DNA from: Planctomycetota bacterium
Lineage (GTDB): Bacteria; Planctomycetota; Phycisphaerae; UBA1845; UTPLA1
Length of the DNA stretch: 64,000 nt
NCBI GenBank assembly: GCA_015654675.1
Contig: JAATGM010000039.1
Location: forward strand, 1-64,000
Direction of reading: 5' to 3'
In this document: one piece after another, positions 46,170-63,952 of the stretch
How positions within the stretch are numbered: position 1 is the first letter of the stretch
How the letters are laid out: each line of letters begins with the position of its first letter
Made by a program: the position numbers and the translations under genes
The notes under the pieces: generated by a model
Databases searched by the model: none
Seen by the model: the letters and a program-made list of their open reading frames with translations, nothing else
Told to the model about the DNA's origin: nothing

Positions 46170-46375
46170 AACCGGTGTCGGGATTGTAGTGGGGTGTATC
46201 GGCGAGCGGGTGGTTGGGAACCTGGGGTGGTGGGAATCGTCTAAGAAGAAGGCGGCTGGATCGTAGGATAATTGCCGGAATGCGCGTTGCGGGCGGCGGG
46301 GGTTTTACGACTATTGTTGCGGGAACCGCGAGGTGATTGGACGGTATCAGACTGATGGCCAATTTGGAGACTGAT

Positions 46376-48487
46376 ATGAAGCTTGATAAGCGTTTTGAGC
46401 AGATGGGACTGTCGGGTGCTGTTGGTGCTTCGGGTACCCGGGCTTGCTTTCGTTTCGGCCTCCGGCCCGAGCTTGCGCTCGGGGTTCTGATTGCTTTCTC
46501 TGCGCTCGCGCATGCTGAGGATCCGAAGGTTTCGCGGGTGGCGCTGTTTAACTCCGGGGTTGGGTATTTTCAGGCGGATGGGACGGTTGATGGGGATGCT
46601 TCGTCGGACCTGCGGTTCCGGACGGGGCAGATCAATGACATTATCAAGTCGCTGGTGCTGCAAGACCTCGACGGCGGGACGATTTCGGCGGTTCAGTATC
46701 CTTCGCGCGACCCGATTGAGAAGACGCTGAAGAGCTTTGGCGTGGACATTACGGGCAAGCCGACTTTGGGGCAGTTGCTGGATCAGCTTCGCGGGGTGGA
46801 GGTGGAGATTGGCGCGCCTACGGCGGGGAAGGGGCTGATCCTCGGGGTCGAGAAGCAACGGATGGAAGTCGAGAAGGGGAAGGTTGTCGAGACCGAGGTG
46901 CTGACGCTTTTGACGGACGGGGGGATGCGGACGTTTAAGTTGAACGAGGTGGGTGGGATCAAGATCAATGATCCGAAGATCGAGAGCGAGTTGAAGAAGG
47001 CGCTGCTGACGCTGGCTTCGGCGCATGACGCGGACAAGAAGACGGTGACGCTGAACTTCGCGGGGAAGGGGAAGCGGCGGGTGCGCGTGGGATACATGCT
47101 GGAGGCACCGATTTGGAAGACGAGCTATCGACTCGTGCTGGCGGATGGGAAGAAGCCGTATTTGCAGGGATGGGCTACGGTCGAGAACACGACGGAGGAA
47201 GACTGGAAGGACGTTGCGCTTTCGCTGGTTTCGGGGCGGCCGATTTCGTTCATCATGGATTTGTATACGCCGATTTATGTTCCGCGGCCGACGGAGGAGT
47301 TGGAGCTTTATGCTAGTTTGCGGCCGCCGACTTATGAGGGGGGCGTGCCAGCCGAGGCGGCGGAGATGGCCGACACTCGCGCGAAGCGCGGCACATACGC
47401 GTTCAGTCAGAACAAGCCGGCTGCACCGCGCGCGGCGACGGGGATTGCGGGAAGGGGAGCCACTAACCGAGAGACGGCAGCGCTCGCGTTTAACGATTCG
47501 AGTGTTGAGTCTGTCGCTACCGCGGAGAAGGCGGGGGAGTTGTTTGCTTATGACATCAAGACCCCGGTTTCGTTGAAGCGGCAGCAATCGGCGATGTTGC
47601 CGATTGTTACGGCGGAGATTGAGGGGGAGAAACTTTCGATCTACAACCCGGCTACGCACGTCAAGTATCCGCTCAACGGGATTGAGATCACTAACACGAC
47701 CGACCTGAATCTGATGCAAGGGCCGGTGACTGTGTTTGACGGGAGCACCTACGCGGGCGACGCGAAGATACCGGACCTGCGGCCGAAAGAGAAGCGGCTG
47801 ATGGCCTATGCGCTGGACCTGGCCGTCGAGGTGACGCAGACGCCGCAGACGCAGCCGGAAGAGCTGGTCAGTCTGCGCATCGCCAAGGGAACGCTGATCT
47901 TCAAGCGGAAGTATGTCGACTCGCGAACCTACACACTGAAGAACAAAGACAGCAAGGCGCGGACGGTGATTATTGAGCAGCCGGTGTTTGGGGAGTGGAC
48001 TCTTATTGAGCCGAAAGACGTCTATGAGCGGGCGGGGCAGCTTTATCGGTTCAAGGTGAATGTGCCGGCGAATGCCACGGCGACGCAGAAGGTGGTGCTG
48101 GAGCGGACGGCGGATGAAGGGATTGCCATGTCGTCGATGGGGCTGGACACGATTGATTTCTATGTTCGATCGCGGGTTTCGTCTCCCGCTTTGAAGAAGG
48201 CGCTGTCGGAGCTGGTCGCCAAGCGCGTGGCGATGGATTCGGCGCAGCGGAAGTTGTCTGAGATTGAGTCGCAGATCAGCACGATTGACAGCGAGCAGAC
48301 GCGGCTTCGGGAGAATATTAAGGCGCTTCCTCCGGGTAGCGACATCGTACGTCGGTACCTTACCAAGCTGGATTCGCAAGAGACTGAGATTGAGAAGCTT
48401 CGGTCGGAGGCGAAAGTCGCTCGTGCTGAGGTTGAAGCGAAGAGACATGCGGTTGAGGCGTTTCTTTTGGAGCTTAGCGTTGAGTGA
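46376..48487 (+). CDS. DUF4139-type exported protein
   Basis: 703 residues from ATG 46376, which has GGAGA 5 bases upstream; in-frame starts 20-40 bases earlier lack one. A hydrophobic stretch (LALGVLIAFSALAHAEDPK) acts as late signal peptide. The body is beta-rich: VSRVALFNSGVGYFQADG, SLVLQDLDGGTISAVQYPS, and the DUF4139 core SYRLVLADGKKPYLQGWATV followed by ENTTEEDWKDVALSLVSGRP. The C-terminus has long coiled-coil helices (about 610-700). In animals and bacteria DUF4139 proteins are secreted with unknown role. It is divergent from the methyltransferase gene. Confidence 0.85.
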   Translation: MKLDKRFEQMGLSGAVGASGTRACFRFGLRPELALGVLIAFSALAHAEDPKVSRVALFNSGVGYFQADGTVDGDASSDLRFRTGQINDIIKSLVLQDLDGGTISAVQYPSRDPIEKTLKSFGVDITGKPTLGQLLDQLRGVEVEIGAPTAGKGLILGVEKQRMEVEKGKVVETEVLTLLTDGGMRTFKLNEVGGIKINDPKIESELKKALLTLASAHDADKKTVTLNFAGKGKRRVRVGYMLEAPIWKTSYRLVLADGKKPYLQGWATVENTTEEDWKDVALSLVSGRPISFIMDLYTPIYVPRPTEELELYASLRPPTYEGGVPAEAAEMADTRAKRGTYAFSQNKPAAPRAATGIAGRGATNRETAALAFNDSSVESVATAEKAGELFAYDIKTPVSLKRQQSAMLPIVTAEIEGEKLSIYNPATHVKYPLNGIEITNTTDLNLMQGPVTVFDGSTYAGDAKIPDLRPKEKRLMAYALDLAVEVTQTPQTQPEELVSLRIAKGTLIFKRKYVDSRTYTLKNKDSKARTVIIEQPVFGEWTLIEPKDVYERAGQLYRFKVNVPANATATQKVVLERTADEGIAMSSMGLDTIDFYVRSRVSSPALKKALSELVAKRVAMDSAQRKLSEIESQISTIDSEQTRLRENIKALPPGSDIVRRYLTKLDSQETEIEKLRSEAKVARAEVEAKRHAVEAFLLELSVE

Positions 48488-48549: not shown

Positions 48550-48960
48550 ATGGGCGAGATTGAGACCGGGGAGGCGCCTCGTCGCATCGCTGACGATATT
48601 GCGGATCGGCTGCTTGAATTTGCGGCGCGAGTTACGAAAGTCGCTCGCGAGCTTCCGCGCGACGTCGCCGGGCGGCATATCGCGGACCAACTTCTTCGGT
48701 CGGGCATTTCGCCGGGTGCACTTTATCAGGAGGCACGCAGCGCTGAGAGCAGACGCGATTTTGTCCACAAGCTCAGCGTAGCCCTAAAAGAGATGCAGGA
48801 GACGCGATACTGGCTTCAATTGACGGCTCGTGCGGGACTCGTTTCATCGGCCCGCCTTGGGGCCGTCACTCGCGAGGCAGATGAGCTGTGCCGCATTCTA
48901 GGGAAATCGAGAACGACGGCTCGACGGCGATTAGTTGGACGTGGCTTACCTGACGAGTGA
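48550..48960 (+). CDS. Four-helix-bundle protein (23S rRNA IVS / Avd-like family)
   Basis: 136 residues, almost fully helical: RRIADDIADRLLEFAARVTK, HIADQLLRSGISPGALYQEA, ARSAESRRDFVHKLSVALKE and ETRYWLQLTARAGLV. The LRSGxSxGANxxEA and FxxKLxxALKExxExxYWL pattern is the four-helix-bundle family first found in 23S rRNA intervening sequences; related proteins (bAvd) accompany diversity-generating retroelements. No reverse transcriptase or variable repeat is seen here. An AT-rich palindrome sits directly upstream and GAGGAA serves as ribosome-binding site. It ends 14 bases before the convergent lon stop. Confidence 0.9.
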   Translation: MGEIETGEAPRRIADDIADRLLEFAARVTKVARELPRDVAGRHIADQLLRSGISPGALYQEARSAESRRDFVHKLSVALKEMQETRYWLQLTARAGLVSSARLGAVTREADELCRILGKSRTTARRRLVGRGLPDE

Positions 48961-52097: not shown

Positions 52098-53030
52098 ATG
52101 ATTTATCGAGCGCTCGGGAAAACAGAGCTTGAAGTGTCCGTTGTCGGGCTGCGCGGATGGAGTGAGCGGCCGGACGAATGGGCGGCTCCGGCGGTCAACG
52201 CGAACGAGGTGATCTCGGCGGTTCAGACGGCGCTGGAGCTGGGGGTCAACTATGTCGAGGTTTCGGCGGGGCGATCGGTGGGCGCGGGCGATGAGGCCGT
52301 GGCGCGGGCGCTGGCCGGCGCGCATGGGCGAGTTTACGTGGCCGGGATGTGCGGTACCGGAGATGGGGGGCGGATCGGGCGGCGCGAGCAGATCATCCAG
52401 CAATGTGAGGATGGACTGAGGCGGCTGCGGATCGAGCGGTTTGACGTGTTCTTCTGCCGCTGGCCCGAGGTGGCGGCTCCGATGCCGGAGGTGATCGAGG
52501 CATTGGGGCGGTTGCGGGAGCGCGGCGAGGCGGGTATCGTTGGACTCAGCCATTACGCGTACGAGCATGTAAGCGAGGCGCGTCGGGCGGGCGTGGTGCA
52601 GGTTGTTCGGTCGTCGCTGAACGTTTTAGAGCGCGACGACGGGCATGATCTCATTCCTTATTGCCAGGAGCACGGACTCGCGGTGATCGCGGGCGATCCG
52701 TTCTGTCATGGGCTGCTGAGCGGGAATTTCACAGGGACCACGGCGGCAACCGGAGGCAGCACTAAGGTTTTTCGCAGCGGAAGGTTCGACGCGAATGTCG
52801 CGGCGGCGCAACGGCTGTCGGCCATCGCGGCTGAGGGTGGAATGACGCTGCGACAGCTCGCTTTGGCGTGGGCACTCGGCCAGTCGGGCGTGACATCAAC
52901 GGTAACAGCTGCGGCGCGTCCATCGGAGGTGCGCGAGCAGACGACAGCACTGGGGCGGACGATTCCCGAAGAAATCGGGGGTCGTATAGACGATACATTA
53001 TCGGAACGCGATCGACAGTTGGATCGCTGA
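52098..53030 (+). CDS. Aldo/keto reductase-like protein
   Basis: 310 residues. The AKR barrel is recognisable in MIYRALGKTELEVSVVGLRG, QTALELGVNYVEVSAGRSVG, DGLRRLRIERFDVFFC, GEAGIVGLSHYAYEHV, and the C-terminal LALAWALGQSGVTSTVTAAA. The typical Asp-Tyr-Lys-His tetrad is only partly evident: the TSxxYG-type tyrosine segment reads YVEVSAGRSVGAG, so Tyr is shifted or lost, and it may not reduce carbonyls like the family type. NADPH-dependent activity is therefore inference. It is divergent from hsp20-lon and sits 35 bases before the FHA giant gene, perhaps in one operon. Confidence 0.85.
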   Translation: MIYRALGKTELEVSVVGLRGWSERPDEWAAPAVNANEVISAVQTALELGVNYVEVSAGRSVGAGDEAVARALAGAHGRVYVAGMCGTGDGGRIGRREQIIQQCEDGLRRLRIERFDVFFCRWPEVAAPMPEVIEALGRLRERGEAGIVGLSHYAYEHVSEARRAGVVQVVRSSLNVLERDDGHDLIPYCQEHGLAVIAGDPFCHGLLSGNFTGTTAATGGSTKVFRSGRFDANVAAAQRLSAIAAEGGMTLRQLALAWALGQSGVTSTVTAAARPSEVREQTTALGRTIPEEIGGRIDDTLSERDRQLDR

Positions 53031-53065: not shown

Positions 53066-56000
53066 ATGTCTGCGGCGCCAGAGACTACCACGCAGGGGCG
53101 GCATTTTCTTACTTTCAATGCCCTTTACCAGAATGCTCGCCAGCCGATTCGAACGCTGGCGGGGCCGTTGATCGTCATCGGGCGAGCGCGCGGATGCGAT
53201 CTTGTGCTCGGCTCGGAAAGCGTTGCACCGGCGCACCTCGCGATCGTGTTTTCACGGGGCGAGTGTTTCGCGTGCGACCTTGGCGGGCCGCGCGGGACGA
53301 TTCTCAACGGACGGCCGATCCGGACGCAGCGGCTTACGGATGGGGATGAGCTGACGATTGGGAACTTCCGTTTCCGGGTGGATGGGATCACGTCGGAGTC
53401 GAGTTCGCGAGCGAGCGCGCCGCGTTTCACGCTGGCTGGCTCGGGGCCGATCGGGCGGTTGAATTGCTCGGACCCGGTGATGGTGATTGGATCGGACCTC
53501 GGGGCGGACCTGGTGATCCGGGATTCGGATGTGGCGGGCGTCCAGTGCTTGATTGCGTGGACGGACGGCGGGGTGATTGCGCGGGATGTGGGCGGCGGGG
53601 CAGGAATTTCGGTGAATGGGCGGCGGTCGTCGGCTGAGGTGTTGCGCGGCGGCGATGTGATCGTGATCGGTCCGCATGACATCCGGTTCGAGGCGGACAC
53701 GGCGAGCTTGCCGGGATCGGGCGAGGCGCCCACGGGCGACGAGCTGGCGAAGGCGTCGGATCGGGCGCTGGCGCCGGTTTCGCGGACGCGCGGAGCGGAT
53801 CTGACGCTGGAAGACTCGGAAGACGCGAACTGGGCGGACTCGCTGGCTGAGTCGGACGAGGTGAATCTCGACGTCGAGCTTTCGCGCGATTTGAAGGATT
53901 TGAAGCAGGCGCGATCGGAGATCGCTTCGGCGAAGGATGCGCTAGAGCGCGAGCGGACGCAGGCGCCGTCGTCGGCGGTTTTGTCGTCTGAGGCGCTGGG
54001 CGAAGTGATGATGTCCGGGGCGCGCGGGGCGACGCGTTCGTTGCCGCAGGCGATGCCGTCAGTCGACGTGGATGCACAACGACGGTCGATCGAGGCGGAG
54101 CGGTCGGTGCTGGCGGCGGAGCGAGCGAACCTCGATGCGCTGCGGGCCGAGATGGAATCGCAGCGGCGGCAACTGGCGACGTCGCGCGGGCAAGTGGACA
54201 CGCGGCAGGCGGAGTTTGACCGGCGGATCGCGGAGATGGAGGCCGAGGGGCGGCGGATCGCGAACGAGCGGCAGATGGTGGAAGCCGACAAGGCGGAGCT
54301 GCGGCGAATCAAGGGGGAGATCGAGTCGCAGGGACGCGATGTTTCGCAGATGCGCAGCCGGCATCGGCAAGAGCAGGCCGAGATGATTTCGCAGCGGTCG
54401 GCGCTGGCGAATGAAGTCGCGGTGTTGACGCAGCGGAAGGCGGATTTGCTGGGCGAAGCGGAGGACGCGGCGCAGCAACAGGCGCGGCAGGCGCAAGTTC
54501 GGAGCGAGCTGGAGGCGTCGCGTTCGGAACTGACGAAGGTGACGGCGGAGACCGAGGGGTTGCGGAAGCAGGCGCTGCGCGACCGTACGACGGTGAGCGA
54601 ATTGATGGCGACGCTGGAGCAGGCGCGGCGGGACCGCGACTCGCTGCGGGCGAAGCATTCGGAAGAGGGGCGGACCAAGCAGACGGAGTTGGAAACGCTT
54701 GGGCGCGAACTTACGGCGCGGACGCAGTCGCTTGAGAAGCGGTCGGACGAGATTGAACAACGCGAGCGGGCGGTCAATGAGAAGGTGGCGGCGCTGCGCG
54801 AGCGGGCCGGCAAAGAGCAGAAGAAGCTCGACGATCATGCGATGGCGCTGCGGACGACGCTGGATGAGCAGCGCGAACGGCAGCGGGTGCGGCAGCTTGA
54901 ACTTGAGGACCTCGGCAAGAAGCTGGAAGAGGCGCGGGCGCGGCTCACGCGGGATGTCGAGACGACACTGACGGACCGGACGCGGGAATTGGATGAGCGG
55001 GGCAAGTCGCTGGATGAGAAGACTACTTCTTTGCAGCGGCGGCTGGAGGAATTTGAGCGTCAGACCGGTGGCATGAAGGAGCGCGAGGACCGGCTGGAGC
55101 GCGCGGCGGCGGAATTACGACAGCGCGAGGCGACGCTTTCGTCGTTTGAGAGCGCGCTGCAGGAGCGGGACGCGCGGTTGCGGGAGTGGCAGGTCCGGGT
55201 CGAGCGGGACGAGTCGAAGCTGGACGACGTTCGGCGAGAGACCGAGACGACGCAGAAGGACGCAACGGCGATCAAGCAGCAGATCGACCGGCAGCGGGCC
55301 GAGATCGAGGCGCAACGCGAGTCGGTCGGGCCGGAGCTGGCGAAGGTGGAGGCGGCGCGGGCCGCACTGACAGATCGCGAGAAGCATCTGGAGGAGTTCA
55401 AGGGGGCGCTGGACCAGCGGGATGCGCAGCTTGCGGCGCGGCACAACGAATTAGAGACATGGGCGGCGCGGGTGGCGTCGCAGGAAGAGCGTCTGGACGA
55501 CGCGAACGCGCGACTCGAAGAGGCGCAGCGGCGCGAAGAGACGGTGACGGCGGGCGAGTCGGCGCTGGTGACGCGGCTGGCGCAGGCGGACCTGCGCGAC
55601 GCCGAACTGACGGCGTTGAAGGAGAAGCTCGATCGGCGGCGGGGCGAGCTGGAGTCGCGCGAGACGGCTCAGCGGGAGCGCGAGACGACGCTGGGGCGGG
55701 CCAAGGCAGACTTTGAGGTCGAGGTTGAGGCGTCTCGAAAGGCGCGCGAAGAGGCGCGTGTCATGCGGGACGAGGCGACGCGACGGGCGGGCGAGGCGGA
55801 TACGCGCGAGTCGGAGAACCAGCGACGGGCGACGCAGCTTGATGAGATGGAAGTCACGCTGCGGACGGAAGAAAACACACTCGAGGATGAGCGGACGGCG
55901 TTGCGACGCGAACAGACACAATTGAAGTCGGCGCATGAGGGGCTGACGGCCGATATGGCGACGCTGGCGCGGCAGCAGAACGAACTGGACCAGCGGGCGA

Positions 56001-59000
56001 GCGACTTCAGCCGGCAGCAGGAAGAGATTCAAACGCTGCGGACGACGCTGCACGATGAGCGAATCCGGCTGGAGGCGATGCGGGTCGGGCAGGCGGACGA
56101 GGGACGGCGCCTGGAGGCGTCGGCGGCGGAGATCGCGGGGCGGCGTGCCGAACTGGAGCAGCGCGCGGCCGAGATCGAGCAGCAGAATCACGAGCTGGCG
56201 AACGCGGGCAACGAACTGACGGCGCGGCGGCAGGCGGCGCGGGCCGAGGACGACGCGCTGGCGTCGAAGCGGGCCGCGATCGACGCGCGGCAAGCGGAGC
56301 TGGATGACCGGGGGCGGGCCGTGCTTCGCGATGAGGCGGCGATCAACCACGTTCGGGCGCAGCTTGACGAGGAGAAGTCGGTGCTGGCTTCGCTGCGGGA
56401 GCAGACGGAGTCGGATCGGCGGCTGGTCGAGCAGACGCGGCTCACTTACGCGGCGGGCCTCTCGCAACTCGAGGCGCGGCAGCGCGAGCATGGAGATCGC
56501 GAGGCACAGTCTGCGGAACAGGCGCGGCAGGCGGCGGCGCTGCAGCAACGGATGGAAGCGGAGCTGGATCGATTGCAGCAGGAGCGCGAGCAGCTTCTGG
56601 GTCTGCGGCAGTCGGACGCGGCTGAGGGCGACCGGTTGAAGGTGCTTTCGGGCCAGCTTGAGACGCAGCGACTGGAGATGAAGCGGCAGGAGGATGCGCT
56701 GATCGCCCACGAGCGGGCGTTGCAAGCGCGGACGGACCAGTTGGCGCAGATCGAAGTGCACCTGCAGAGCCGGATGCGCGAATTGGAAGAGCGATCGACC
56801 GGTGCGGCGCGGGATCGCGAGGACGTGGAACGCGAACGGATCGTCGTTCGGCGCGACATCGAGCAGGAAAAGGCCTCGGTGGCGGAGGCACGGGCGGCGA
56901 TCGAGCAGGAGCTGCGATCGGCGCGGGCGCGCGACGCGGCTGAGCTTGCGGCGGCGCGGGAGGAGTTTTCGCGACGCAAGGCGGATCTGGAGCGCGAGTA
57001 CGCGGAGAAGCGATCGCTGATCGAGGCGTCGGTGCGGCAGAAGATCGCGGGGGAACACGAAGTACGCGGGACGCAGGAAATGCGTCGGGCGCAGGAGACG
57101 CTGGCGAACGCGGAGGCGCGGCTGGCGAGCGTGGACCAGGATATCGCGGAGCGGCTGCGGCAGTTCGAGGTTGAAATGCAGCGGCGGCGGAATGATATGG
57201 AGCAGGATTCAGCGGCGCGGCGCGCGGCGACCGAAGACGCGCTGGCCGAGAAGCAGCGGGAAATTGACGAGCTGGTGGACGAGTTGCGACGGCGGCAGTC
57301 GGCGCTGGCTTCAGAAGAGGCGGCCATCGCCTCGCAGGCCGACGAGCTGAGCGCGGAGAGCGCGGCGGCCGAGCGGCGGATGCTGCGGGCGACGGAAATC
57401 GAACATAGCGCAGAACAGCGGATGCGGGTGGTGGAGACCCGGCAGAGCGAGCTGGCGGCATTCGAGGATGAGATTCGCACTCGACGGACGGCCGAGCTGC
57501 CGAAGCCGGCGGAAGCGGTGCGCGAATCGGAGCCGGACGAGCAGCCAGTCGTAGCTGAAGGGCCGGATGAGCCGGGCGAAGTTAATACGGATGGATCGGG
57601 CGAACTGGCGGTGTTGCTCGGGGATGACACGCCCTTTGCTACGCCGAAACGGTCGTGGGGCCGAGCGGCGGTTCTGACGGGAGTGTTTGCGGGGCTGGCG
57701 GCGATCGGAGCGTGGTACGTACTTCCGACGCCGAGCGGAACCGGAACGCTGAAGCTCGCAAGCGGCGATGCACGGAACGAATTGCTGCGGCAGGTGACGG
57801 ATGCAGATTTCTGGTCGCGAATTTCGACTGCGTCCGGAACCGATCTGATCGCGGCCGTGAATGCCCGGCAACTTACTGTGGTGCCGGAATCGAAGGAGTC
57901 GGTGCGGATTGAGGCCAACTCGCAGGCCATGGCCGACCTGGCGGGTCGGACGATTGCGGCAGACCTTTCGGCGGCGCCGGCGGCGAGCGAGATTCCCGGG
58001 AAGCGCGACCTGGAGCAGGTGCGGAGCGAACGGGCCGCTAAAGCGACAGAGTTGCAGTCGGCAGAGCAAAAGCTTGCGGCACTCTCCGCAGCGGTTTCGA
58101 ACGAAGGCATTGCGAAGAAGATCGCCGACGCGGAACGCATCCGTGAGACGCGGCGCGAGGCCGTGGTGAAGGCAGAGCAGACGGAACAAGGCACCAGCGC
58201 CCGACTGGCGGCGGCCGAGAAGGCCGAGGATTCGAACCGGGAATCGACGCCGGACGATCTGGCGGCGGCCCTGGCCAGCGATCCGTCTTACGGCGAGGCG
58301 AGGCGGGACTGTATTTCGAAGGCGCGCGGGCTGCGAGATGAACTGATTCGAGTGGCCGGCGAGGGGCAGCAGTCGTTTGGATATATGGCGTCTTCGATGG
58401 AGGACTTCCGCAAGGCATCGGAAGCGCAGAAGGCGCAGACAGCCGATGCATCGATCCGAACCACGCTGGTAGAGCTCGAAGGGGCGGCGGACCTGACGGG
58501 CGGACGCTGCATCGAGCTGCAAAAGCAGTGGGACGAACTGTTCACGCCGATCCGCGGGTGGCAGGACGGCAGCGACGCGACGGCGCTGACTTCATCAGTT
58601 GAGAAGGCGTCAGTCTGGATGCTGACATCAGAGCGCGAATTGGCGCAATTGATGGAGGGACTGGGCAAGCGGGTCGACGCGATCACGGCGAACGGATCGG
58701 ACATGGCGGCGCGGCGCGTCATTGAGAGCGGATTGCATAAGCGGCGGCGAGCGTACGAGGAGACCTATCGGCAGCTTCGCAACGCAATCGCGCAGGTGCT
58801 GGCGAAGGAGAACTTCAAGGTTCACGCGCTGAGCGAGGCGATCTCGGATCTGACGCGGCGTGCCGAACGGCGCAAGGCGGCAATCGAGAAGGTCGTGAAG
58901 GCCGAGACGAAACACGGCATGGGTGAGGCACGGCGAAAGACGCTCTCGGCTTTGAGCAAGGATCAGGCCGAGGCGAAGGATCGGCACAATCGGGCCGTCA

Positions 59001-59350
59001 AGGAATTGATGGCCGCGGATGAGGAATTGGCGATGCTGAAGCAGGCGTCCGAGCGGGCATCGCGACGGCGCGATGACCTGACGGCGCAGCACGTCGCAGT
59101 CGGCGATCTGAAAGAAGAGATCAAGCGGCTTGACGCGCGGATCTCGGAGGCGGATTCGGCGGAAACGCCGGCGGCATCGCCCAGCCCGCAGGCCGAGTAC
59201 CAGGCGGCGTCTTCAGCGGGTTTCCTGAGCGGTGGTCCCACCTACGTGCGGCCGTTGATGTCCGGAATTCTGGCCGGACTGTTCTTTGCACTCATGCATC
59301 GGATGTTCAAGGGCGGCCGGCGGCGTGCGGCGGTCGAATCGGCGAGCTGA
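53066..59350 (+). CDS. Giant membrane protein with two degenerate FHA domains, very long coiled coil and two membrane segments
   Basis: 2094 residues. FHA-like domains at about 30-108 (IGRARGCDLVL) and 128-210 (IGSDLGADLVI); both keep the NG turn (N81, N184) but lack the phosphothreonine-binding Ser (A54, A157), and the second also lacks Arg (S143) and His (Q160). About 270-1475 is an almost unbroken Arg/Glu/Gln/Ala coiled coil. TM1 is at about 1530-1550 (AAVLTGVFAGLAAIGAWYVL), TM2 at about 2060-2080 (MSGILAGLFFALMHRMF), with a roughly 500-residue helical loop between them. This TM-coil-TM layout recalls Wzz/GumC chain-length proteins. A GT4 gene follows 42 bases later. Family unknown; a scaffold or envelope-organising role is inference. 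Confidence 0.85.
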   Translation: MSAAPETTTQGRHFLTFNALYQNARQPIRTLAGPLIVIGRARGCDLVLGSESVAPAHLAIVFSRGECFACDLGGPRGTILNGRPIRTQRLTDGDELTIGNFRFRVDGITSESSSRASAPRFTLAGSGPIGRLNCSDPVMVIGSDLGADLVIRDSDVAGVQCLIAWTDGGVIARDVGGGAGISVNGRRSSAEVLRGGDVIVIGPHDIRFEADTASLPGSGEAPTGDELAKASDRALAPVSRTRGADLTLEDSEDANWADSLAESDEVNLDVELSRDLKDLKQARSEIASAKDALERERTQAPSSAVLSSEALGEVMMSGARGATRSLPQAMPSVDVDAQRRSIEAERSVLAAERANLDALRAEMESQRRQLATSRGQVDTRQAEFDRRIAEMEAEGRRIANERQMVEADKAELRRIKGEIESQGRDVSQMRSRHRQEQAEMISQRSALANEVAVLTQRKADLLGEAEDAAQQQARQAQVRSELEASRSELTKVTAETEGLRKQALRDRTTVSELMATLEQARRDRDSLRAKHSEEGRTKQTELETLGRELTARTQSLEKRSDEIEQRERAVNEKVAALRERAGKEQKKLDDHAMALRTTLDEQRERQRVRQLELEDLGKKLEEARARLTRDVETTLTDRTRELDERGKSLDEKTTSLQRRLEEFERQTGGMKEREDRLERAAAELRQREATLSSFESALQERDARLREWQVRVERDESKLDDVRRETETTQKDATAIKQQIDRQRAEIEAQRESVGPELAKVEAARAALTDREKHLEEFKGALDQRDAQLAARHNELETWAARVASQEERLDDANARLEEAQRREETVTAGESALVTRLAQADLRDAELTALKEKLDRRRGELESRETAQRERETTLGRAKADFEVEVEASRKAREEARVMRDEATRRAGEADTRESENQRRATQLDEMEVTLRTEENTLEDERTALRREQTQLKSAHEGLTADMATLARQQNELDQRASDFSRQQEEIQTLRTTLHDERIRLEAMRVGQADEGRRLEASAAEIAGRRAELEQRAAEIEQQNHELANAGNELTARRQAARAEDDALASKRAAIDARQAELDDRGRAVLRDEAAINHVRAQLDEEKSVLASLREQTESDRRLVEQTRLTYAAGLSQLEARQREHGDREAQSAEQARQAAALQQRMEAELDRLQQEREQLLGLRQSDAAEGDRLKVLSGQLETQRLEMKRQEDALIAHERALQARTDQLAQIEVHLQSRMRELEERSTGAARDREDVERERIVVRRDIEQEKASVAEARAAIEQELRSARARDAAELAAAREEFSRRKADLEREYAEKRSLIEASVRQKIAGEHEVRGTQEMRRAQETLANAEARLASVDQDIAERLRQFEVEMQRRRNDMEQDSAARRAATEDALAEKQREIDELVDELRRRQSALASEEAAIASQADELSAESAAAERRMLRATEIEHSAEQRMRVVETRQSELAAFEDEIRTRRTAELPKPAEAVRESEPDEQPVVAEGPDEPGEVNTDGSGELAVLLGDDTPFATPKRSWGRAAVLTGVFAGLAAIGAWYVLPTPSGTGTLKLASGDARNELLRQVTDADFWSRISTASGTDLIAAVNARQLTVVPESKESVRIEANSQAMADLAGRTIAADLSAAPAASEIPGKRDLEQVRSERAAKATELQSAEQKLAALSAAVSNEGIAKKIADAERIRETRREAVVKAEQTEQGTSARLAAAEKAEDSNRESTPDDLAAALASDPSYGEARRDCISKARGLRDELIRVAGEGQQSFGYMASSMEDFRKASEAQKAQTADASIRTTLVELEGAADLTGGRCIELQKQWDELFTPIRGWQDGSDATALTSSVEKASVWMLTSERELAQLMEGLGKRVDAITANGSDMAARRVIESGLHKRRRAYEETYRQLRNAIAQVLAKENFKVHALSEAISDLTRRAERRKAAIEKVVKAETKHGMGEARRKTLSALSKDQAEAKDRHNRAVKELMAADEELAMLKQASERASRRRDDLTAQHVAVGDLKEEIKRLDARISEADSAETPAASPSPQAEYQAASSAGFLSGGPTYVRPLMSGILAGLFFALMHRMFKGGRRRAAVESAS

Positions 59351-59392: not shown

Positions 59393-60538
59393 ATGCGGCG
59401 CGTGCTGCTGCTGGTAACGGATTTGCAGCCGGGCGGCACACCGCTGCGGATCGTGCGGACGGCGCGCGAGCTGCCAAAATATGGATTTGAGCCGGTGGTG
59501 GGGTGTTTGGCGGCGGCGGGGCCACTATCGGAGACGCTACGGGGGGAGGGGATTGAGACGTTTGCTTGCGATGCGCGACATCGACTGGATGTCGGGGCCC
59601 TATCGAGGTTGGTAGGGATCGTTCGCCGTTACGATCCGGACATGATCCACTCGACCTTGTTTCATTCGAACGTTGCGGCGCGGATGGTGGGGCGTAGCGG
59701 CCGAGCGCGGCCAATCGTGACGGGTAGCGCGACGATCGAGATTGAACGACGGACGCACCGGCTTGGGGAAGCGCTGACATCGGGATTTTCGGATTGGCAT
59801 GTCGCTAACTCGGTTGCGGTGGCGGAGCATCTTTGCGAGGAGCTGGGGTTTTCCCGCGAGCGGATGGTTGTGATCCCGAACGCGGTTGATGTGGGGCGGA
59901 TCGATGCGGCCGCGCCGATCGACCGGCGCGAGTGGGGGATCGCGAGCGATCGGCCAATGGTCGTCTGGGTCGGGCGAATGGATGTGGTGAAGGGGCTCGA
60001 CACGCTGTTGGACGCGATTGAGCTGGTGCGGTGCGAGCGGGCTTGTTCGCTGGTTTTGTGCGGCGACGGGCCGGAGCGGGGGCGGGTTGAGGCACGGGCC
60101 GGCGGATTGGCGGACATCCACTTCGTGGGGTGGCAGGCGGCGCCGGCGGCGTGGTTGAAGGCGGCCGATGTGATGGTTTTTCCGTCGCGAACCGAGGGAT
60201 CGCCGAACGCCTTGTTGGAGGCGATGGCGGCTGGATGCGCGGTGGTGGCGAGCGATATTGCGCCGTGCCGGGAATTGATCGAGCCGGGCGTGAGCGGGGA
60301 ATTGGCGGAGGTCGGCGATGCAACGGGCTTCGTGCGGGCCATCATACGGCTGCTTGGAGATGCGGGGCTGCGGAGTCGAGAGGTTGAATCGGCGCGGCGG
60401 GCGGTTGAGGCGTCGCACGCGGTGGGGACGGTGATGTCAAAGTTATCGGGCTTTTATGATTTGGTGCTTTGTGGGGGCACTGCCGCGAAAAGAATTCTTG
60501 CGCGTTACGAGCCGCCTGCAAACAATGGATTGACATGA
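59393..60538 (+). CDS. Glycosyltransferase family 4
   Basis: 381 residues of GT-B fold. The N-terminal domain starts VLLLVTDLQPGGTPLRIVRT and includes DPDMIHSTLFHSNVAARMVG; the C-terminal nucleotide-sugar domain has VVWVGRMDVVKGLDTLLDAI, LVLCGDGPERGRVEA and the E-x7-E motif in FPSRTEGSPNALLEAMAAG. It transfers a sugar from a nucleotide donor, with retention, to a glycan or lipid. It lies directly after the FHA/coiled-coil giant and may act in the same envelope polysaccharide process. No N-terminal membrane segment. Confidence 0.9.
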   Translation: MRRVLLLVTDLQPGGTPLRIVRTARELPKYGFEPVVGCLAAAGPLSETLRGEGIETFACDARHRLDVGALSRLVGIVRRYDPDMIHSTLFHSNVAARMVGRSGRARPIVTGSATIEIERRTHRLGEALTSGFSDWHVANSVAVAEHLCEELGFSRERMVVIPNAVDVGRIDAAAPIDRREWGIASDRPMVVWVGRMDVVKGLDTLLDAIELVRCERACSLVLCGDGPERGRVEARAGGLADIHFVGWQAAPAAWLKAADVMVFPSRTEGSPNALLEAMAAGCAVVASDIAPCRELIEPGVSGELAEVGDATGFVRAIIRLLGDAGLRSREVESARRAVEASHAVGTVMSKLSGFYDLVLCGGTAAKRILARYEPPANNGLT

Positions 60539-60615: not shown

Positions 60616-60676
60616 AATTGTGTATCTTTCGCCCTAGAAATCCCACTCAGTGGTGATTTCTGGAAGCCGGTCCTTA

Positions 60677-61150
60677 ATGATCTTCTTCAATGGCGCACAC
60701 GATCACACGATCGACGCAAAGAACCGACTGGCGATACCGTCGGAGTTTCGGGATCGGATCGATCCGACGCGTGACGGGAAAAAATTCTACATCGTTCCAG
60801 GATCGCCGCGGACTCGGCTCTGGATCTATACGCAGATCTACTTCGAGACGGTCGCGAGCGGGCTTGGCTCGGACCTGATTCGGGATTCGAACCTGCTCGC
60901 CTATGAGCAGAAGACATTTCCGCGGGTAGCGGACGCAGAACCGGACTCACAGGGAAGGATCATCATTCCGGAGTGGATGTTGCGGAAGACCGGCCTGGGG
61001 CGCGAGGTCGTGGTCTGCGGAGTGCGGGATCACATGGAAGTGCGACGCCGCGACGAGTGGGAGAAGGAGCTGGAAGAAGAGTGGGGCGTGGACCCCGAGC
61101 TGGCCTTCCGGGCGGGCAAAGCCGTCGAAGGAAGCCAGCGAGACAGGTAG
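60677..61150 (+). CDS. mraZ: Transcriptional regulator / division-cluster protein MraZ
   Basis: 157 residues from ATG 60677. Two SpoVT/AbrB-like half-barrels are visible: GAHDHTIDAKNRLAIPSEFR (about 6-30) and VADAEPDSQGRIIIPEWMLR (about 85-110), with VVVCGVRDHMEVRRRDEWEK as the second domain end. MraZ oligomers bind TGGGN repeats and control the dcw operon. The ORF opens at 60650, but the conserved N-terminus begins with MIFFNGAHDHT. It is followed by rsmH as usual, but here with a 582-base gap instead of a few bases. Confidence 0.94.
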   Translation: MIFFNGAHDHTIDAKNRLAIPSEFRDRIDPTRDGKKFYIVPGSPRTRLWIYTQIYFETVASGLGSDLIRDSNLLAYEQKTFPRVADAEPDSQGRIIIPEWMLRKTGLGREVVVCGVRDHMEVRRRDEWEKELEEEWGVDPELAFRAGKAVEGSQRDR

Positions 61151-62662: not shown

Positions 62663-62689
62663 GTTCTCGCGGACACGGAGGTTTCGGTG

Positions 62690-63952
62690 ATGACGAAAGA
62701 GACGAAGATCGGCCTGTTGGTGGGGCTGGCGTTCATCATCCTGTTTGCGATCATCCTTTCGGAGAAGGGTGCGGGGCCGCGGCCACAGGGAACGCCGCAG
62801 TTTACGCAAGTGGATCACGCGCGCGGCGGGACCGAGCGAACCGGATCCACACTGGTGGATGCGGGCAAGCTGCCGCTGCCGGTTGAACCGGTGACGAACG
62901 AATCGCGGCTTGCGCGGACGAAACCGGCGAAGGCGCTGGGGAACGGCAACGCGCTGGCGCGGCACGATTCGAAAGCGGATGAGTTGTCGTTGCCGACGCT
63001 GGAGCCGGCGTTAATTGGCGGTAAGACGGAAAACAGTTCGCCGACGACGATCGAGAAGCCGGCAGTAGTCGGCAGTGATTCTGGCAAAACGACAGAGCTG
63101 GCTTCGGCCGGCAGCGCTCCGCGGAGCGTCGACTCGGCGCTCGAGAACGCTCTGAATCGGACGAGCTTGACGGCACGGACGGAGAGTTCGACATCGCTGG
63201 ATTCGGCGGCGAAGTTCCCGGCTCCGCCGACGAAGGAGTTCGAGGCGGCGTTTGAATCGACGCCGAAGGGCCGGACCTACGTTGTGCAGCAGGGCGACAC
63301 GCTCATGATGATCGCCCGCCGGAACTACGGAATCGGAACTCCGTCGGCGATCGACGCGATCGTGAAGGCGAACGGCAAGACGATCAAGAATGCGCATTCG
63401 ATCCGCGTGGGGCAGAAGCTGACGATTCCGCAGACGGACAAGCTGGCACTGGTGGACGAGACGACAAAGAAAGAATCGGCGACGCCGGATGACCGGATCT
63501 TCATTGAGCCGGTTGACTCGAATAACAACGTCATCGATACGGAGAAGCCCGAGACGAAGGTCGCGGATTCGGCGAAGTCGAAGAGCGAGAGCCACCTCGG
63601 GACAAGCGGCGAGACGAAGACGCCCAAGACGGACGCGGTGGCGCGGGCAACGGGCGACAAGACGCGCGAGTTGAAGAGCGACAAGCCGGGCGACGCAAAA
63701 GCGGCGGCGGCGCGCGTGTACGAAGTGAAGCCGAAGGACACGCTGCAGCGGATCGCGCGGCGCGAGCTCGGGGATGCGAAGCGATACAAGGAAATTGAGG
63801 AACTGAACCGACAGCTCCTCGGCCGGAAGAGCAGATTGAAGCCGGGCATGAAGCTTCGTCTACCGGGCAAGGATTCGGCCTCGACCACGTTGGGCGGGGA
63901 GAGCGAAGCGTCGGCACGGCGGAGCGCGGCCATTGAGATGGCGGCGCGCTAG
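62690..63952 (+). CDS. Membrane-anchored LysM protein in the division cluster
   Basis: 420 residues from ATG 62690 (GGAGG 8 bases before; GTG 62687 possible). One membrane segment (about 7-25, IGLLVGLAFIILFAIIL) anchors a periplasmic Ser/Thr/Lys-rich chain. First LysM: RTYVVQQGDTLMMIARRNYG to HSIRVGQKLTIPQT (about 190-245); second: ARVYEVKPKDTLQRIARREL to LKPGMKLRLPG (about 340-395). LysM binds GlcNAc-rich peptidoglycan. It sits where ftsL/ftsI would be expected after rsmH, so it may tie the division machinery to the wall. No catalytic domain is present. Confidence 0.85.
   Translation: MTKETKIGLLVGLAFIILFAIILSEKGAGPRPQGTPQFTQVDHARGGTERTGSTLVDAGKLPLPVEPVTNESRLARTKPAKALGNGNALARHDSKADELSLPTLEPALIGGKTENSSPTTIEKPAVVGSDSGKTTELASAGSAPRSVDSALENALNRTSLTARTESSTSLDSAAKFPAPPTKEFEAAFESTPKGRTYVVQQGDTLMMIARRNYGIGTPSAIDAIVKANGKTIKNAHSIRVGQKLTIPQTDKLALVDETTKKESATPDDRIFIEPVDSNNNVIDTEKPETKVADSAKSKSESHLGTSGETKTPKTDAVARATGDKTRELKSDKPGDAKAAAARVYEVKPKDTLQRIARRELGDAKRYKEIEELNRQLLGRKSRLKPGMKLRLPGKDSASTTLGGESEASARRSAAIEMAAR

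Follow-up and report, generated by a model that had tools for sequence, protein, structure and literature searches.

What would a planctomycete do with a single 2094-residue protein that joins two FHA domains, through a coiled coil of exceptional length, to a two-helix membrane end, and that is encoded directly ahead of a glycosyltransferase gene? The gene lies in the 64,000-nucleotide stretch of DNA analysed here (the window). Our reading of it, quite possible if a little short of probable, is that the product is an inner-membrane scaffold of the KpsE/Wzz fold with a long cytoplasmic arm, which would dock partners without using phosphothreonine and organise envelope glycan synthesis.

The coordinates of the open reading frame are exact (Table 1). 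Its ATG start is closely preceded by the Shine-Dalgarno-like GAGGTGAGG, and the first residues of the protein (MSA...) are common to orthologues L024 and L036. The initial annotation had described two FHA domains, a long coil and a two-TM end, and the reading frame, Pfam and periodicity analyses show this description to be accurate. The hydrophobic segments TM1 (residues ~1535-1553) and TM2 (~2059-2077) have ~500 residues between them and basic residues at their presumed cytoplasmic ends. The predicted arrangement, two TM helices around one large periplasmic domain, is that of polysaccharide co-polymerase (PCP) proteins such as Wzz, KpsE and Wzc, and would leave the coil and FHA pair in the cytoplasm.

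Table 1. Features of the locus, in positions of the window.
Feature	Position	Strand	Basis or remark
Aldo/keto reductase (AKR), upstream neighbour	52098..53030	+	adjoins short homologues in other families too
FHA-FHA-coiled coil-TM-PCP-like domain-TM protein, 2094 aa	53066..59350	+	homologues ~1950-2600 aa in most family genomes
FHA domain 1 (Arg and His retained, Ser to Ala)	53171..53362	+	Pfam, alignment
FHA domain 2 (Arg to Ser, Ser to Ala, His to Gln)	53483..53671	+	Pfam, alignment
Short DLxxLxxA-type motif, approximate fusion/fission joint	53870..53960	+	aligns with N-terminus of split-gene coil-membrane protein
Heptad coiled coil, residues ~331-1475	54056..57490	+	period 3.52, composition
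TM1, N-terminus inside (inferred)	57668..57724	+	hydrophobicity, model
Periplasmic alpha/beta base domain, KpsE/Wzz-like	57737..57970	+	model, structure comparison, profile-profile alignment
Periplasmic helical bundle and long helices; most conserved part	57995..59158	+	alignment, model
TM2, C-terminus inside (inferred), contains Gly	59240..59296	+	hydrophobic segment
GT4 glycosyltransferase, next gene downstream	59393..60538	+	domain search, conserved in relatives
MraZ, second gene downstream	60650..61150	+	conserved in relatives

The coil region is nearly free of proline (the sole Pro is at residue 756) and rich in Glu, Arg, Ala, Leu and Gln. Its hydrophobic period peaks at 3.52 residues, with a mean power of 0.61 against 0.19 +/- 0.02 in shuffled sequences, and a peak at 3.52-3.54 is repeated in five orthologues. 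A heptad coil of ~1150 residues, close to the ~1200 first proposed, is thereby confirmed. About half of the 70-residue windows along it are individually significant. Because residues 1066-1345 are weakly periodic and a Gly-Pro pair lies inside the coil at 755-756, a single continuous rod of 170-180 nm, such as the ~180 nm originally estimated, is an upper bound only. Coil length differs between relatives, and for this reason a fixed molecular ruler was rejected. The matches of the protein to SMC and HmpF fall far below their cut-offs and rest on coil composition.

Both FHA domains (residues ~36-99 and 140-202) score above the Pfam cut-off and so have the FHA fold by profile. The substitutions that the initial annotation read in them are present: Ala replaces Ser in the first (VAPAH), which keeps Arg (IGR) and His, while the second has lost all three, with Ser at the Arg position (IGS) and Ala and Gln at those of Ser and His (VAGVQ). 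In an alignment of the 15 FHA-bearing family proteins (30 domains), Arg is retained in 2 first and 1 second domains, Ser in 1 first and 2 second domains, and His in all 15 first and 12 second domains; Arg and Ser occur together in none of the 30. Five of the six other FHA domains in the same genome, by contrast, show the intact IGR...S..H pattern, so the loss is a trait of this protein family and not of the genome or of a single protein. The phosphothreonine site is degenerate throughout the family. An orthologue with an intact site would contradict the suggestion that these domains do not read phosphothreonine; none was found among the relatives, and the suggestion is supported family-wide.

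Sequence-only searches with the C-terminal domain against Pfam and PDB gave coiled-coil or chance matches only. An AF2 model of this domain (pLDDT 81) shows the PCP order of elements, TM1-b-aaa-b-b-a-long helices-b-TM2, in which the elongated periplasmic helices return to TM2 via a short strand (534-538, low confidence). Searches with the whole 585-residue model in Foldseek and VIA were uninformative, their lists being filled by helical bundles. The base domain was considered alone, as modelled on orthologue L034 (pTM 0.70). Foldseek by itself gave no match for it under E 0.001. In the structure search the top six rows were all KpsE, the polysaccharide co-polymerase of KpsMT capsule export (PMC11041684), with Z of 7.4-8.5 over 122-132 residues against 6.2 for the next unrelated row, a Z of 8.5 being at the edge of the aligner's meaningful range.

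Profile comparison gave a similar picture. Alignment by hhalign to Wzz proteins of the same order, gathered through PF02706, had a probability of 74 (local) or 84 (global) and a score of 36.5, compared with a maximum of 18.6 in 150 column permutations. In a control with 26 families the best two were the protein's own homologues, and the best non-homologous family reached 23.3. Pfam Wzz (PF02706) itself was absent from the matches listed for the window's domain and from the families shown for 19 members (E up to 1). A Pro-rich segment before TM2 and a Gly-rich TM2 are features of PCP proteins (PMC7809406); Gly is present in TM2 of most members (GILAG here), and the Pro segment is weak and variable. 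The base-domain search and the Wzz profile alignment are two independent lines of moderate strength and they agree, which supports, moderately, an alpha/beta base at the membrane and a predicted KpsE/Wzz (PCP-like) fold for the membrane end. The Wzz-like membrane end first proposed thus holds as a fold, but the closest solved structure is KpsE and no member matches the Wzz HMM.

Those relatives that carry names, picked up in a contig scan with a closer subset of the members, are MAGs under the labels Planctomycetota, Phycisphaerales or Phycisphaerae, and the planctomycete origin assumed in the initial annotation is supported. A search with the window's own C-terminal domain recovered this domain from 15 of the 16 family-mates, in some of them weakly; in the last, G003, a helical-core profile located it. 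The giant coil is confined to this one family, where it occurs in 16 of 17 genomes, some of the proteins being cut by contig ends. Twelve family-mates have a split form consisting of two adjacent genes, one encoding an FHA-FHA-coil protein of ~770-900 residues without a membrane segment and the other a coil-TM-domain-TM protein of ~1950-2600 residues. The one-gene form is found in the genome studied here (G000), in G011 and in G004, where a contig end cuts the C-terminus; in G006 the N-terminal part is lost at a contig end. The fused proteins have, immediately behind their FHA pair, a recognisable counterpart of the N-terminal motif of the separate coil-membrane protein. In a tree of the membrane domain, G000 with G011, and then G004, fall outside the split-gene genomes, so that one fission event is the most economical explanation, although the long branches call for caution. 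Judged from these sequences, the single chain is probably the ancestral form, later divided into an FHA-coil gene beside a coil-membrane gene.

Wider surveys of the order, class and phylum used the conserved helical core as query. The TM1-TM2 module is present in 90 of 114 genomes of the order, nearly always in single copy, and beyond the order the class sample yielded two weak matches to this query and the phylum sample one. The spacing between TM1 and TM2 is about constant (~510-550 residues) whereas the cytoplasmic part ranges from ~50 to 2000 residues, so that the membrane module is the constant part and the arm the variable part. On these sequence comparisons, the module running from TM1 to TM2 forms a distinct protein family specific to the order, and its elaboration with a giant coil and FHA domains is a feature of one bacterial family.

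A GT4 gene downstream, as initially annotated, is confirmed in 16 of 16 family loci with enough contig, immediately after the gene in 15 and at a distance of ~5.6 kb in G010 (L028); in L024 and L078, where antisense ORFs overlie it, it was located by tblastn. Its best-scoring models are those of EPS/exosortase-associated GT4 enzymes, whose cut-offs it does not reach. MraZ is present in 15 of 16 such loci. Gene and neighbour order, which if not conserved in related genomes would have spoken against the initial annotation, is conserved. The G003 protein has 802 residues and its locus retains the order AKR - gene - GT4 - mraZ - rsmH - LysM gene, with no FHA domain found there. Either the GT4 link predates the giant arm, therefore, or the arm was lost in G003. 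Homologues outside the family have an AKR gene upstream in several loci, and no GT4, MraZ or RsmH was found beside them. No Wzx, Wzy or ABC exporter was found among the scanned neighbours.

Several other features of these loci were recorded. A LysM protein (62687-63952) lies between rsmH and the PBP transpeptidase gene, a position often occupied by ftsL, and a LysM gene also follows rsmH in G011 and G003. The whole G000 genome gave no tubulin/FtsZ match, although PBP, Mur ligase and MurG-like genes lie 3' of rsmH, downstream of the locus (L041). Upstream in the window, a 23S rRNA-intervening-sequence-type protein (48550-48960) adjoins Lon, and a 735-residue ORF (46241-48448) has no Pfam or NCBIfam match. 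In the split-gene relative L032, a 731-residue protein with a C-terminal GreA/GreB domain (L032:1091-3286) follows mraZ, and ORFs of similar length occur at the same place in other relatives. In four loci of family f4 (L085, L088, L089, L095) the short homologue is preceded, at a distance of one or two genes, by a related gene; the two that were scanned have DisA-type diadenylate cyclase domains.

In the scaffold reading, the PCP-like membrane module would form a periplasmic scaffold, predicted to be probably an oligomer. Its cytoplasmic N-terminus would be extended into a coiled-coil arm of up to ~170 nm carrying the two FHA domains at its tip, where they would serve for docking or assembly without reading phosphothreonine. 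The arm may keep partners, plausibly the GT4 of the adjacent gene or other glycan-synthesis factors, within reach of the membrane scaffold, and scaffold and arm together would organise synthesis of an envelope glycan.

The PCP-like fold and topology and the GT4 neighbour would also suit a conventional polysaccharide chain-length regulator of Wzz/KpsE function with an incidental coil, the comparison drawn in the initial annotation. This is unlikely: a true Wzz (C56, 581 aa) is encoded separately in the genome, which argues that the 2094 aa protein is not the ordinary regulator, no Wzy, Wzx or ABC partner was seen beside the gene, and an arm of >1000 residues retained across the family would hardly be incidental. 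With coil length varying and homologues outside the family having no GT4 neighbour, the evidence lends no support to control of chain length. A slightly better candidate, though still an unlikely one, is a tether of long reach and purely structural role: its FHA tip would seize another membrane, the nucleoid or a polar structure, and the GT4 link would be no more than operon history. Golgins of eukaryotes combine a long coil with a C-terminal membrane anchor and an N-terminal docking module, and the protein resembles them in this layout by analogy only, without homology. Variation in coil length is expected of a spacer, and the membrane module occurs without GT4 outside the family. However, the GT4 linkage is kept through deep divergence in the family, including the short-protein relative, and nothing points to a second membrane or other target. 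By the same analogy, the protein could be a bacterial golgin analogue, the PCP-fold scaffold serving as a long-range cytoplasmic tether that links the inner membrane with a second membrane or with the nucleoid via phosphorylation-independent FHA tips, in cells without detected FtsZ; we think this improbable.

The gene's position upstream of mraZ-rsmH and a division/cell-wall cluster, in a genome without detected FtsZ, raises the question of a cell-division or wall-synthesis scaffold. Conservation of mraZ downstream, followed by rsmH and the LysM gene in G000, G011 and G003, and the cell-wall genes beyond them in G000, are consistent with such a role. It is nevertheless decidedly improbable, as rsmH was not found within the fetched split-gene loci, a GreA-domain gene follows mraZ in L032, and neither MraZ nor RsmH was seen beside homologues outside the family. 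Further matches of the FHA regions, to Yop-YscD_cpl and weakly to GltG, might suggest a secretion or motility ring component (FHA - TM - periplasmic) like SctD or GltG. The GltG score comes through the FHA part only, however, the periplasmic fold is PCP-like and the scanned neighbourhood holds no secretion or gliding genes, which makes this extremely improbable.

Among its nearest known counterparts, the protein shares with KpsE two TM helices, an alpha/beta base packed after TM1 and long periplasmic helices, but has a giant cytoplasmic coil, an FHA pair and a large helical bundle of its own, and no KpsMT-type transporter was seen beside the gene. WzzB and Pfam Wzz PF02706 (PMC7809406) have the same element order, a profile match from TM1 through the base helix and Gly in TM2; in contrast, there is no HMM match, identity is ~10%, the Pro-rich motif before TM2 is kept only in part and the genome has its own Wzz. 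SctD/YscD are likewise membrane proteins with a cytoplasmic FHA fold, and Pfam Yop-YscD_cpl matches the FHA regions studied here, whereas in the present protein two tandem domains are separated from the membrane by a giant coil and the periplasmic fold is another.

Envelope-glycan scaffolds of the Wzz/KpsE type are known only with short cytoplasmic parts or a kinase. The open-access literature searched holds no description of FHA domains, a giant coil and a PCP-like membrane module in one protein; 'FHA domain' and 'Wzz' co-occur in one open-access paper, on another subject, and no open-access paper was found on Phycisphaerae coiled-coil proteins of this kind. What this family keeps beside a glycosyltransferase is a Wzz/KpsE-fold module whose arm could span much of a small cell, and with it one can test whether Phycisphaerae use long coiled-coil tethers to organise envelope synthesis or membrane shape.
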